Shown in pieces: positions 20,850-31,135 of a stretch of 37,628 nucleotides of DNA. Below the pieces are notes generated by a model, which had not been told where the DNA came from, did not search any database, and saw only the letters and a program-made list of their open reading frames with translations. The translations under genes and the position numbers were made by a program. Numbering within the stretch: position 1 is the first letter of the stretch; each line of letters opens with the position of its first letter. The stretch lies in the IMG/VR virus record IMGVR_UViG_3300030329_004866, positions 1 to 37,628 of that record. One strand, 5' to 3'. This stretch comes from a virus.

Positions 20850-21350
20850 ATGGATGTGATTTTCGATATTGATGGGACGTTGGTGGACATTAGCCATCGG
20901 CTGAAATACATTGGGGCTCCTAGGGAGCATACCAAACTCGATGATGATGAGCACAAGCGCCTGTCCAAAAAGGACTGGAAAGCGTTCCGTGATCCATTGA
21001 AAAAGCGGTGGGATGAGCCAATTTGGCCTGTTATCAGCACTTTATTGGCTCTCCACGCTGCTGGACACCGGATTCTCATTGCTTCCGGCCGGACTAAGTC
21101 GGAAAAAGAAGGTACCTTGGATTCTCTCAGGACATATATACCCTTCATAGACGATGTCCCTCTGTATATGCGTAGTGATGGAGACTTTCGAAAGGATACT
21201 GTCGTAAAGTCTGCAATGCTCGATAAGATGCTAGATGCTGGGTACAAACCAGTTATGGTCTTTGATGACAGACCTTCTGTCATAGAGATGTGGCATAGCA
21301 GAGGATTGAAAGTCATGGATGTGAGAGATCCATCCAAAGGAAATTTTTAA
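20850..21350 (+). CDS. PNKP-type 3'-phosphatase (HAD)
   Basis: The 166-residue protein reads as the phosphatase domain of T4 polynucleotide kinase: DIDGTLVDISHR (residues 6-17), then ILIASGRTKSEKEG, YMRSDGDFRKDTVVK (about 110-124) and PVMVFDDRPSVIEMWHSRG (about 134-152). It should remove 3' phosphates from nucleic acid ends. The kinase domain is absent, so it is a stand-alone phosphatase. GAGGAGAAG precedes the ATG. It may work with the ligase-like protein at 4400. Confidence 0.85.
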   Translation: MDVIFDIDGTLVDISHRLKYIGAPREHTKLDDDEHKRLSKKDWKAFRDPLKKRWDEPIWPVISTLLALHAAGHRILIASGRTKSEKEGTLDSLRTYIPFIDDVPLYMRSDGDFRKDTVVKSAMLDKMLDAGYKPVMVFDDRPSVIEMWHSRGLKVMDVRDPSKGNF

Positions 21351-27514: not shown

Positions 27515-27561
27515 AAGGAAGGCTGTTTTAGAAGGGCGTTGCCCCTATAACAGTCTTCCTT
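27515..27561. terminator. Convergent hairpin between gene 32 and the tape-measure candidate
   Basis: A 13-bp stem AAGGAAGGCTGTT/AACAGTCTTCCTT (27515-27527/27549-27561, one G-U) encloses an inner GGGC/GCCC. It lies where the two strands converge and covers the last codons of the minus-strand gene. T-runs are weak on both sides, so it may terminate or protect RNA in either direction. Confidence 0.65.
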
Positions 27562-29933
27562 CCTATTCCTCCACTTGGAGGACTACCTGAAGGAATAATT
27601 GTGGTGCCCCCTCCACCACCGCTGCTAGCTTTAGCATCAACCTTAGCCATGGCAGAAATAACAGCTTGGGCTATTTGACCGTTTTGTTTAACCATCTCTT
27701 GTATTGCAGCTGCAGAATCTCCTCCACCTGCTTCACCATCAATAGCCTGAGCACCAATAGCAGCAGCCCCTGAGATTTTGGTATCTCCGTTAGCGGCCAA
27801 GGGCCCAACTCCAAACTCAGCCAGTTCCTCATCCGTGCCTTGTCGAACGGCTGACCCCCCAGGCACCATTACTCCGTTAACCATAGCGCCACCAGACATT
27901 AGTGCTTGTTTTTGTTTCTTGAGTGCCGCTAGTTTTTTCTCGTCATCTTCCCGAGATCCAATCCAATACGAACCTTCTAGGTCTTCTTCCGTATCTGCAA
28001 TTTCTTGATCAAGTTTTGCCATCTTTTCTTCTGGTGACATTGGTTTTTCAGGTTTATCAGATCCAAATCCTATAGCACCCATGACACTAGAAACGGCACC
28101 AGAAACTTTACTTCCAACAGCGCTAGCTGCACCGCCGACAGCTCCAAGCGCTTTTCCTCCCAATTCGGATGCTTTATCAGCTACTGCACCGGCAGCGCCT
28201 TTGATAACTCCGGCAACCTCACCAGCAGTTTCTTTGGCTGCATCATAGCCACTGCTAGCCATATCAGCAATGCCTTCTCCGATATCTTTAACTAACCCTG
28301 CTGCTGACTCAAATCCTTTACCCAGCAACTCACCAGCATCTTTTACAACGCCCTTAAATCCTTTCTTCTTCAAATACTCCCAAGCCTTTGCTGCTATTTC
28401 TTTGCCGCTTTTAAAGACAGCCAAAATAGTTGGTTTGACACCATCCTTACAACATCTGTATATGAATAATCCAAGGTTACCTCCAACAAATGCACCTATA
28501 ATACCACCTAATACACCGCCTACTAATGTACCCACAAAGGGTATGACTGTTAGCACCAATGCACCAACTACAGCACCCAAGACACCACCAGCGGCTTCAC
28601 CCAACATAACAAATCTATTCTCCATCCTTTTCTCATCACTGATGGAAGGGTCTAACTCGTTCTTGCCAAGCATAAACAATGTAATCAGCGCTGATATTGG
28701 TCCTAGCGCTCTAGCAATTCCTTTTGCTAACCACTTCATTCCAGTCATCTTGCCGAACCTGGCTGCTGCTCCTACTATAGTATCATAGATACCTTTTAAC
28801 ACACCACCAACCCTCTTAGCAAACTTCATAAAAGAGCCCGTTTTAGTTCTGGTAGTTGCTGGCCCAGCTGGTTTAATTGCTTCTGCTTTTGGTGCCGCAC
28901 CTGCTCCTTTAGCAGCATCGGCATCAGGTGCTGGTGCTGCTGGCGCGGCTCCTGGCTTAGCAGCCATTCTTTTATCAACTTCGGCTTGAGATGTTGCAGC
29001 TGGTGCTGTTCCTGGTCCAACAACCTTAGCTTGTGATGCTCTTGCTCTTGGTGCCTCAACTTCATCAGCCATTTTAACTGCTTTGGCTGAAGGTCCTTTA
29101 GCCCCTACATCATCTAATGCTTTTTTGGCATCGGCGGCACTAACACCGCCGCCCTTTGCCATGAACTTACCAGTATCCGGGTCAAGTTTTCCAAGCGTGC
29201 CGTCTTTCTTTACCCCAAGCCCTTTTTTGCCAAGTTCGGCTTTCTGCTTCTCCGATAGGTTTCGACCACGATCGTCACTTTCAATCCGCGTTTGTTGTGC
29301 AGTTCGTGCTACTTTTTCAGGTTTATCTGGTGTAGCTTTTGTTGTTGTTGTTGTTGGAGAAGGTGTAGGAGTTGGACCTTTGGTTTGAATACCTAATGCT
29401 CTTTTAAGAGAATCTCCTAAATCAACTTTCGACATGCGGTCGGTGAATTTGCTTAAACGATTCAAACCAACAGCAAAACCAGTAGTTAGAGCACCTAATG
29501 GATTCTTTAGTTCATCAAGTAAACCAGCAACACCATTTAGAGCATCACCAATTATAGAATCCTTACCAAACATAGTGTCAGTTAGACTCTTTACTCCTGA
29601 TTTAAAGCCACCAATTATTTCATCTTGGAAAGCTAGTCCTATGCTAGCTCCAAGGGCGCCCAATCCAAGCATCTTGGCTAGGCCACCCATTTCTGCTTTT
29701 TTTCTATTGGATTGAGCAGCAATGTTTTGCATAGGTTTCGGCATGTCTCTGGCCGCACCCATTTTCTTTTGCTTGAGACGTTCTTTTGCCTCTTCGGCAG
29801 AAGTCTGCCGATCTCTTTTTGCTTGCTTCTGTAAATCAACTCGAAGACCAGCAATATCCCTCTTTTGTTCCATCAATGTTGCATTGATGGATTGAAGAAT
29901 TTGAACTTGTTGTTTCTGGTCTTTGATAGCCAT
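27528..29933 (-). CDS. Large Ala/Gly-rich virion protein, tape-measure candidate
   Basis: The 801-residue protein has an N-terminal coiled coil (QQVQILQSINATLMEQKRDIA and a Lys/Glu-rich stretch to about residue 75), a Pro/Ala/Thr linker (about 190-375), a membrane-like glycine-zipper region (GGVLGAVVGALVLTVIPFVG and GGVLGGIIGAFVGG, about 450-500), an Ala-rich helical part and a Gly/Ser-rich end. Coiled coil plus membrane-active segments, and the position after the gene 26 frameshift site, fit a tail tape measure. T4 gp29 is 590 residues. No enzymatic motif seen. I call the role by context. Confidence 0.55.
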   Translation of the reverse strand: MAIKDQKQQVQILQSINATLMEQKRDIAGLRVDLQKQAKRDRQTSAEEAKERLKQKKMGAARDMPKPMQNIAAQSNRKKAEMGGLAKMLGLGALGASIGLAFQDEIIGGFKSGVKSLTDTMFGKDSIIGDALNGVAGLLDELKNPLGALTTGFAVGLNRLSKFTDRMSKVDLGDSLKRALGIQTKGPTPTPSPTTTTTKATPDKPEKVARTAQQTRIESDDRGRNLSEKQKAELGKKGLGVKKDGTLGKLDPDTGKFMAKGGGVSAADAKKALDDVGAKGPSAKAVKMADEVEAPRARASQAKVVGPGTAPAATSQAEVDKRMAAKPGAAPAAPAPDADAAKGAGAAPKAEAIKPAGPATTRTKTGSFMKFAKRVGGVLKGIYDTIVGAAARFGKMTGMKWLAKGIARALGPISALITLFMLGKNELDPSISDEKRMENRFVMLGEAAGGVLGAVVGALVLTVIPFVGTLVGGVLGGIIGAFVGGNLGLFIYRCCKDGVKPTILAVFKSGKEIAAKAWEYLKKKGFKGVVKDAGELLGKGFESAAGLVKDIGEGIADMASSGYDAAKETAGEVAGVIKGAAGAVADKASELGGKALGAVGGAASAVGSKVSGAVSSVMGAIGFGSDKPEKPMSPEEKMAKLDQEIADTEEDLEGSYWIGSREDDEKKLAALKKQKQALMSGGAMVNGVMVPGGSAVRQGTDEELAEFGVGPLAANGDTKISGAAAIGAQAIDGEAGGGDSAAAIQEMVKQNGQIAQAVISAMAKVDAKASSGGGGGTTIIPSGSPPSGGIGRKTVIGATPF

Positions 29934-29939
29934 TATACT

Positions 29940-30263
29940 TTACTTTTTGCTCATATATGCTGTCATACCCATGTATGCACCAACTATACCAGCCATAGCA
30001 ATATAGAACAAAGCAGACAAGTCTCCTAATAGCTTTAATCTTGTTTCAGGTATAATTCCTGGGATCATTAATATAATCGTGAACACAATAATGCAAATCA
30101 TAGAGATCCAAGCCATCCGTCTTTGAGCATCGGCCTTATCTTCTTGCATTTCGAGTTCTTCAATTTCTTTCATTTTAGCTAGTTCTTCATCAGTCACAAC
30201 ACCATCCCCATCTAAATCGTACTTGTTATAAGTCGATTCTTTCTGCAGTTTCTTTTGAACCAT
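29940..30263 (-). CDS. EF-hand membrane protein in the tail block
   Basis: The 107-residue protein has a textbook EF-hand calcium loop DLDGDGVVTDEE (residues 16-27: Asp at 1, 3, 5, Gly at 6, Glu at 12), a charged helix, and two hydrophobic segments (about 50-71 and 82-103). GGAG lies before the ATG. It sits between the gene 26 frameshift extension and the tape-measure candidate. A calcium-sensing membrane protein packed in or assembled with the tail is possible; function unknown. Confidence 0.75.
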   Translation of the reverse strand: MVQKKLQKESTYNKYDLDGDGVVTDEELAKMKEIEELEMQEDKADAQRRMAWISMICIIVFTIILMIPGIIPETRLKLLGDLSALFYIAMAGIVGAYMGMTAYMSKK

Positions 30264-30266
30264 CTA

Positions 30267-30440
30267 CTACTCCGACACTTCTTGTAATTCCTGTACATGT
30301 TGTACTAACATATCGAAGTATAAGTCACGTTCAAAAGGATATAGGTTTTCTATCTCTGTTATACTATATTTATGATGCTGAACCATTGAGAACGTAGAAA
30401 TGTAGTAATTAGTTAACGTACTATGGCCCAGCGCTACTAG
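30267..30440 (-). CDS. -1 frame extension of gene 26 (probable frameshift product)
   Basis: From the slippery site at the end of gene 26 the -1 frame is open for 57 codons (LVALGHST ... VQELQEVSE) to TAG at 30267-30269, giving a 289-residue fusion. The core ITEIENLYPFERDLYFDML resembles the T part of phage tail chaperones and small gp51-like hub proteins. A separate start at ATG 30386 would give 39 residues but has no Shine-Dalgarno, which favours frameshifting. Confidence 0.65.
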   Translation of the reverse strand, partial: LVALGHSTLTNYYISTFSMVQHHKYSITEIENLYPFERDLYFDMLVQHVQELQEVSE

Positions 30441-31135
30441 AAAAAATCGTTCAGACCCTCCAACGTCCTAGTTTTCTTTACATTCTTCTTACCAACTTTA
30501 ACAGTGTACTCAGCATCTAGCTTTACTCTTGGATACGTTACAAGATATTCTGAAACATCAGCCCATGCATTTGCTGGTAATTGATCGAGAAACTCAGTGA
30601 CTTCTTTTGGTTTAAAGTCACTTAGATCAAACTCCTCTTCACCTTGGTAAACCTTTTTGATGCATGATACAACAAATTCTGAGTTGCCCATCATCGACTC
30701 ACCATCTGGAATAATAAGAAGGTCTTCATATCTTGGGTATCTCACTTCAAGTTTAATGTCGTCAGACACGTCAATTAGTCCAGCCTTAAACTGAGAGTTA
30801 AGCTCCATCTTTGTTAGGTCAACTTCAACCTCAACCCAATCTTCTGTTTCTTCATCAAAAATGTTTATTTTAGAAGAGTCCTTGACACTATTTGCTCTTA
30901 GTTGTAAAAATGCATACTCAGTATCAGCAACTGGCCATTCAGTTGGTGTACAATCTATCATACAATTTGTTAGTACTTGATTGATAGCTGTAATGTAACT
31001 GTTAGGATCAGCTGCTTGTTGAGCTATGAGTAGGATCTTTTCTTCTTTGACTAAGAAAGGTCTGTATTTTATACTTTCACCCGTTGATGGTCTTTTCAAT
31101 TCAAAGATCGGGTGTTGGATTACTGGTAATCCCAT
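30437..31135 (-). CDS. 26: Baseplate hub protein gp26-like / tail chaperone
   Basis: The 232-residue protein begins LPVIQHPIFELKRPSTGESIKYRPFLVKEEKILLIAQQA, split here as the family's opening and the RPFLVKEEKILL motif of T4 gp26-like proteins (PF12322). T4 gp26 takes part in hub assembly. GGAGG precedes the ATG. The end NDFF is encoded by a slippery run before TAG, allowing a longer product. It follows the gp54-like gene by 16 nt and precedes tail genes, as G does in lambda. Confidence 0.8.
   Translation of the reverse strand: MGLPVIQHPIFELKRPSTGESIKYRPFLVKEEKILLIAQQAADPNSYITAINQVLTNCMIDCTPTEWPVADTEYAFLQLRANSVKDSSKINIFDEETEDWVEVEVDLTKMELNSQFKAGLIDVSDDIKLEVRYPRYEDLLIIPDGESMMGNSEFVVSCIKKVYQGEEEFDLSDFKPKEVTEFLDQLPANAWADVSEYLVTYPRVKLDAEYTVKVGKKNVKKTRTLEGLNDFF
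30440..30446 (-). promoter_or_regulatory. Slippery heptamer T_TTT_TTC
   Basis: Read in the gene 26 frame as GAT TTT TTC TAG, the last seven bases before the stop form the X_XXY_YYZ heptamer T_TTT_TTC (30446 down to 30440), right before TAG. P2 uses the very similar T_TTT_TTG for its E/E' tail frameshift. Confidence 0.7.

Follow-up and report, generated by a model that had tools for sequence, protein, structure and literature searches.

A candidate programmed -1 frameshift joining gp26 to a gp51-like extension in T4-like phages

The tail assembly chaperone (TAC) genes of T4-like phages have reportedly been identified by Vladimirov, Gautam and Davidson (Virology 2022, 566:9-15, doi 10.1016/j.virol.2021.11.003). 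According to a 2016 review, long-tailed phages widely share the G-T frameshift, "except T4" (PMC5009743). The 2022 study is cited in the PRFect paper for some T4-like phages that have one short and one longer, fused gene with no frameshifting (PMC10885494), and in the paper on phage Adele as the source on slippery poly-T sequences within the TAC-N gene of T4-like phages (PMC12846349). Because the 2022 study is credited with naming the T4-like TAC genes and is cited for poly-T slippery sites, the central idea considered here is, as the citing papers present that study, already published. A description of the RNA signal, of stem covariation or of the breadth of conservation was not found in the literature, in which the 2022 study was represented by the papers citing it.

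The 3′ end of gene 26 and the encoded proteins

The DNA analysed here (the window) is a 37,628 nt stretch of a marine T4-like phage, taken from IMG/VR record IMGVR_UViG_3300030329_004866. On its minus strand, gene 26 (30437-31135) encodes a 232 aa baseplate hub assembly chaperone, the putative TAC-N and gpG counterpart, and ends with ...TTG GAG GGT CTG AAC GAT TTT TTC TAG, the stop codon occupying 30437-30439. An in-frame X_XXY_YYZ heptamer close to the stop, one feature of a -1 frameshift cassette, is present: T_TTT_TTC lies in the gp26 frame at 30440-30446 (minus strand) and directly abuts the TAG. The -1 frame runs from stop to stop over 30267-30467 (minus strand), and a shift at the heptamer would lead into a gp51-like extension (candidate TAC-C) of 57 codons plus stop (30267-30440, minus strand), reading LVALGHSTLTNYY...YPFERDLYFDML...QELQEVSE. 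The predicted fusion is 289 aa long. The original prediction, made from the letters alone, had placed a slippery heptamer in the correct frame against the stop, followed by 57 open, protein-like codons in the -1 frame. Both statements hold, the latter with a match of the extension to phrog_634 (E 2.9e-21); the coordinates given for gene 26 and the -1 frame were correct, and re-reading the junction returned the same predicted peptide, NDFFLVALGH.

Shuffling predicts 23 TTTTTTY runs in the window and 14 are present, so a run by itself is not rare. When window ORFs of at least 100 codons were surveyed for a canonical heptamer touching the stop with at least 50 codons open in -1, just two heptamers qualified, the T_TTT_TTC of gene 26 and an A_AAT_TTT at ~21341-21347. 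The latter, on the plus strand, directly precedes a stop and has 58 codons open in -1; it was rejected as a frameshift site, as an AAGGAG and an ATG belonging to the next gene are present and the two look like ordinary neighbours.

The protein assignments came from profile and structure comparisons. Pfam family PF12322 matched gp26 with an E-value of 1.2e-42 (146.5 bits against a cut-off of 24.5) and phrog_150 with 2.2e-43, while the extension aligned with positions 55-109 of the 121 in phrog_634, "baseplate hub assembly catalyst" (gp51). An AlphaFold2 model of gp26 (pLDDT 91.9) was compared with known structures, and over ~85 residues its residues 1-94 resembled 3fgx, 2ob9 (HK97 tail assembly chaperone) and 3klu (YqbN), which have been described as TACs (PMC9603447). 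The Z values were 7.7, 7.3 and 6.9, respectively, with the next unrelated row at 2.9; they derive from realignment against Foldseek candidates, and the TACs stood out only at that step. Foldseek itself returned no PDB match to the gp26 model at E ≤ 0.001, no TAC appeared when profiles of gp26 and the extension were run against the sequences of solved structures, and no TAC was recovered when a model of T4-type gp51 was compared with known structures. Because Z stays below 8 and the plain Foldseek search of the PDB had no significant match, the modelled TAC-like fold at the gp26 N-terminus is supported, not proven. The best reading is that gp26 corresponds to TAC-N (lambda gpG) and the fusion to TAC-NC (gpGT).

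The extension is followed by two further genes on the minus strand. The original prediction had noted that many tailed phages make tail chaperones G and GT by such a shift just before the tape-measure gene, but here the tape-measure-like gene does not directly follow the chaperone: a conserved gene for a 107 aa putative membrane protein (29940-30263) intervenes, so that the order is gene 26 with its extension, the 107 aa gene, and then a gene for an 801 aa protein (27528-29933). The 107 aa protein combines hydrophobic helices, which are likely membrane helices, with a loop, DLDGDGVVTDEE, that resembles an EF-hand, and it is 36% identical to a protein of pelagiphage HTVC008M and 34% identical to one of Melnitz, both encoded in the same place. 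The 801 aa protein is called tape-measure-like from its position and a weak similarity (E 2e-4) to the "putative tail tape measure" of HTVC008M; in PHROG it matches an uncharacterised family.

Conservation of the heptamer and selection on the -1 frame

Alignment of relatives had been proposed as a check on whether the heptamer and the frame that follows it are conserved, and both proved to be kept. In five phages with 33-36% identity, whose hosts are Synechococcus, Pelagibacter, Caulobacter, Methylophilales and Stenotrophomonas, gp26 ends with T_TTT_TTY and an open -1 frame encodes the same protein. An IMG/VR profile search yielded 80 loci, and in the first set as a whole T_TTT_TT[C,T,A] was found in the right frame in 86/86 loci with a complete 3′ end (83 distinct, the window counted once). 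It stands 0-3 codons before the stop, twice 8, with the extension following. Searching with the extension alone gave a second set of 65 new loci (63 distinct), and the heptamer was again upstream in the right frame in all 65. No loss of the heptamer with an intact extension was seen in close relatives among the 146 distinct loci. Beyond both sets, it was present in S-CAM4, ACG-2014d, Sinorhizobium phiM9 (as T_TTT_TTG), the KVP40-type Vibrio phages R10Z and 1.081.O, and Vibrio phages F86 and Bakedbeans.

Two natural variants of this arrangement were noted. At loci L083 and L088 the heptamer lies 8 codons before the stop, and the short form has extra residues after FF. In the distant Pseudomonas phage Cygsa01 (L100, 2072-2982), the only heptamer-less phage seen among those with an adjacent extension, gp26 ends ATT TTC ACC TAATG and the ATG of the extension overlaps the stop; the frameshift has possibly been replaced there by translational coupling.

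Codon choice at the site was strongly constrained. In the first set, the codon before the Phe pair encodes Ser, Asp, Thr or Asn and is always NNT, with TTT invariably as the first of the two Phe codons; against the loci's own codon usage, with relatedness ignored, the log10 P values are -17 and -10, respectively. The codon preceding the Phe pair likewise always ends in T in the second set. The T run is therefore under selection as nucleic acid.

We asked how the -1 frame itself behaves across relatives. Nei-Gojobori dN/dS, calculated from pairs with at least 70% nucleotide identity, was 0.088 for extension codons 2-18 and 0.039 for codons 19-50, ratios that are rough because synonymous sites are near saturation. 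The frame is thus under purifying selection from its first codons, ahead of the first ATG. The first ATG, GTG or TTG of the window's extension is codon 19, and no start with a ribosome binding site was found near the front of the extension. Among 79 relatives, 53 have an ATG, GTG or TTG within the first 12 extension codons and 26 have none; in 77 there is no start preceded by a Shine-Dalgarno sequence in that interval. Because early starts with a Shine-Dalgarno sequence are largely missing while the early codons are selected, the point at which ribosomes enter this frame must be the heptamer or lie very close to it. By the same sequence evidence the extension does not appear to be a T4-type gp51 gene with its own start, ribosome binding site and N-terminal domain; as its front lacks a start or Shine-Dalgarno sequence, an N-terminal domain could come only from gene 26, by frameshift. 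The pattern that would have spoken against the original prediction, with relatives giving the second part its own start and ribosome binding site and lacking the slippery run, was not the one found in these 79 loci.

These counts bear on translational coupling, in which ribosomes would terminate at the end of gp26 and then restart in the frame overlapping it to yield a free gp51-like protein and no fusion. While the early start codons in the 53 relatives, some of which almost touch the stop (S-ShM2, Cr30 and DLP6), the TAATG of heptamer-less Cygsa01 and the annotation of gp51 as a separate gene in GenBank records are all in its favour, coupling is very unlikely as the explanation here. There is no start codon for it in the window before codon 19 or in the first 12 codons of 26 relatives, and it is at odds with the lack of an early start with a Shine-Dalgarno sequence in 77 of 79. 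It also leaves unexplained both the invariant NNT TTT TTN and the presence of the extension in T4 only as a fusion.

Public annotations of this region vary. In S-CAM4 (L090, 1504-1683) and ACG-2014d (L092, 1504-1692) the extension is wholly unannotated in the public cyanophage records. More generally, it is common in deposited cyanophage genomes for gp51 to appear as a separate gene, to be given too late a start or to be missing from the annotation.

RNA signals and the proposed mechanism

A structure 5-9 nt downstream of the heptamer, a second feature of -1 frameshift cassettes, is present in the window. A 10 bp stem-loop, GCUGGGCCAU / AUGGUUCAGC (30377-30432, minus strand; arms 30423-30432 and 30377-30386), starts 7 nt after the heptamer, with a folding energy of -17.7 kcal/mol and a z-score of -4.65. 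Across the first set, the 60 nt downstream of the heptamer had a mean fold z of -2.3, compared to -0.4 to +0.4 in flanking 60 nt windows and about -0.2 elsewhere; the same 60 nt in the second set averaged -2.3 against +0.1. The register of the window's stem, scored as at least 8 of 10 pairs, recurred in 26/81 first-set and 25/63 second-set loci, while controls with a slid partner gave 0-4 and 0, respectively. The remaining loci form different hairpins, and 9/81 have no clear one.

Changes in the two arms were found to be coordinated through the genetic code. A Ser AGY codon in one arm goes with Ala GCT in the other, and Cys TGY with Ala GCA or GCG (23:4 against 1:6, p 0.001, combined sets with relatedness ignored), such that a Ser/Cys replacement is paired with the synonymous third base of the Ala codon. 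The second set alone was uninformative on this point, having no Cys cases. A pooled covariation and pair test on all 69 aligned sequences came out only slightly above shuffles. The idea of one stem common to all loci was rejected, given that weak pooled result and the share of loci with the window's register, about a third to 40%. A search of Rfam found no family matching the frameshift site.

Upstream, a Shine-Dalgarno-like GGAGGG (30456-30461, minus strand) ends 9 nt before the heptamer. An SD-like 5-mer ending at that distance was present in 40/82 first-set loci, and an SD-like sequence in 18/63 second-set loci. The Glu codon of the LEG motif was GAG in a ratio of 41:19, compared to a background of 484:1258. 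This internal element is best regarded as an optional stimulator that is not universal.

Two further explanations are weighed by these signals. RNA polymerase slippage on the T run would produce mixed mRNAs and the same fusion without ribosomal frameshifting, and every locus does carry a run of T6-T7. Runs of this length are short for transcriptional slippage, in the first set no further T ever precedes the run, and ribosomal frameshifting accounts better for selection on an RNA stem downstream; slippage by the polymerase is thus even less likely than coupling. The least likely of the readings considered treats the extension as a small gene in its own right, with the codon-19 ATG (30384-30386) as its start. 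That ATG has no Shine-Dalgarno sequence ahead of it and is itself part of the stem's 3′ arm, and the conserved residues L4, H6, L9 and F17 lie upstream of it, in codons 2-18 that are themselves under purifying selection. The HTVC008M and Melnitz records, in which the annotated gp51 begins with an internal ATG equivalent in position, agree with an independent start, but that annotation cuts off the conserved residues.

The locus is best explained by a programmed -1 ribosomal frameshift, which we consider highly probable and which would yield TAC-N (232 aa) together with TAC-NC (289 aa). At T_TTT_TTC, a minority of ribosomes would slip both tRNA-Phe back by one base, aided by the downstream stem-loop and probably by pairing of the internal GGAGGG with 16S rRNA. 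The slipped ribosomes would avoid the stop next to the heptamer and continue for a further 57 codons to make the 289 aa TAC-NC. If lambda gpG/gpGT is a guide, the tape measure protein may be coated by many copies of the short form and few of the long one, with the extension recruiting tube subunits or the hub. Slippage itself, its rate and the role in assembly are what we infer from these comparisons.

T4 and other described frameshift systems

T4 differs from the window in how the two parts are arranged. The gp26 proteins belong to the same family (PF12322, phrog_150), and the window's extension corresponds to the C-terminal part of T4 gp51 (phrog_634), to which it aligns with an E-value of 7e-4. 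T4 gp51 (249 aa) contains a PF12322 domain at 1-201 and a phrog_634 match at 147-246, and shows weak but significant similarity to T4 gp26 (E 2e-6). A model of T4-type gp51 is predicted to have the elements of gp26 in the same order, plus C-terminal helices. T4 gp51 therefore reads as a gp26-like domain fused to the extension. In T4 gp26, by contrast, FF is encoded by TTC TTT after GAG, so that there is no heptamer; the -1 frame is closed and no extension follows. T4 gp26 and gp51 are separate, divergent genes on opposite strands, as in phiAS4 and AM101. From the domain make-up of gp51 and its similarity to gp26, T4 would thus make the short and long forms from two genes, and the window from one gene and a shift. 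The original prediction's remark that T4 is not the textbook case agrees with this arrangement, and its suggestion that the T4-type hub proteins may be the counterparts of G/GT gains support from the likeness of the gp26 model to TACs and from the gp51 fusion.

KVP40-type and F86 Vibrio phages (L093, L095 and L091), Schizotequatrovirus-type Straboviridae, keep GAT TTT TTC and the -1 extension. The switch to two genes therefore seems to have occurred inside Straboviridae, and T4 is suggested to be a derived exception. The sampled marine and soil T4-like phages fall inside the G-T frameshift rule, and together with T4 they offer a before-and-after pair for studying the replacement of a frameshifted product by a second gene.

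A broader model, plausible but falling a little short of probable as a whole, joins these observations. The frameshift would be ancestral to the whole T4 superfamily and kept in KVP40-type Straboviridae, and in the enteric T4 lineage a duplicated gene, fused and moved to the other strand, would have taken its place. The RNA signal, made up of an optional internal Shine-Dalgarno element, T_TTT_TTN and, downstream, a stem formed by two conserved coding blocks that covary through synonymous codons, would represent a fast-changing and so far undescribed class of -1 stimulator.

The locus shares its layout with several known frameshift sites. Like E. coli dnaX, it has a heptamer with an SD-like element upstream and a stem downstream, while dnaX is an unrelated gene with an A-rich rather than T-rich heptamer and the SD-like element is not universal here. 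Phage Adele (Vandenendeviridae/Andersonviridae) also has a conserved poly-T -1 site ending TAC-N, although it belongs to other phage families and its motif is GTTTTT (PMC12846349). With respect to lambda gpG/gpGT, no sequence similarity to gpG or gpT was demonstrated, T_TTT_TTY is not lambda's own heptamer, and here the conserved 107 aa gene precedes the tape-measure-like gene. What the two systems have in common is a short form and a -1 extended form, a heptamer ending the short gene, a position just upstream of the tape-measure region and, as modelled, a TAC-like N-terminal fold.
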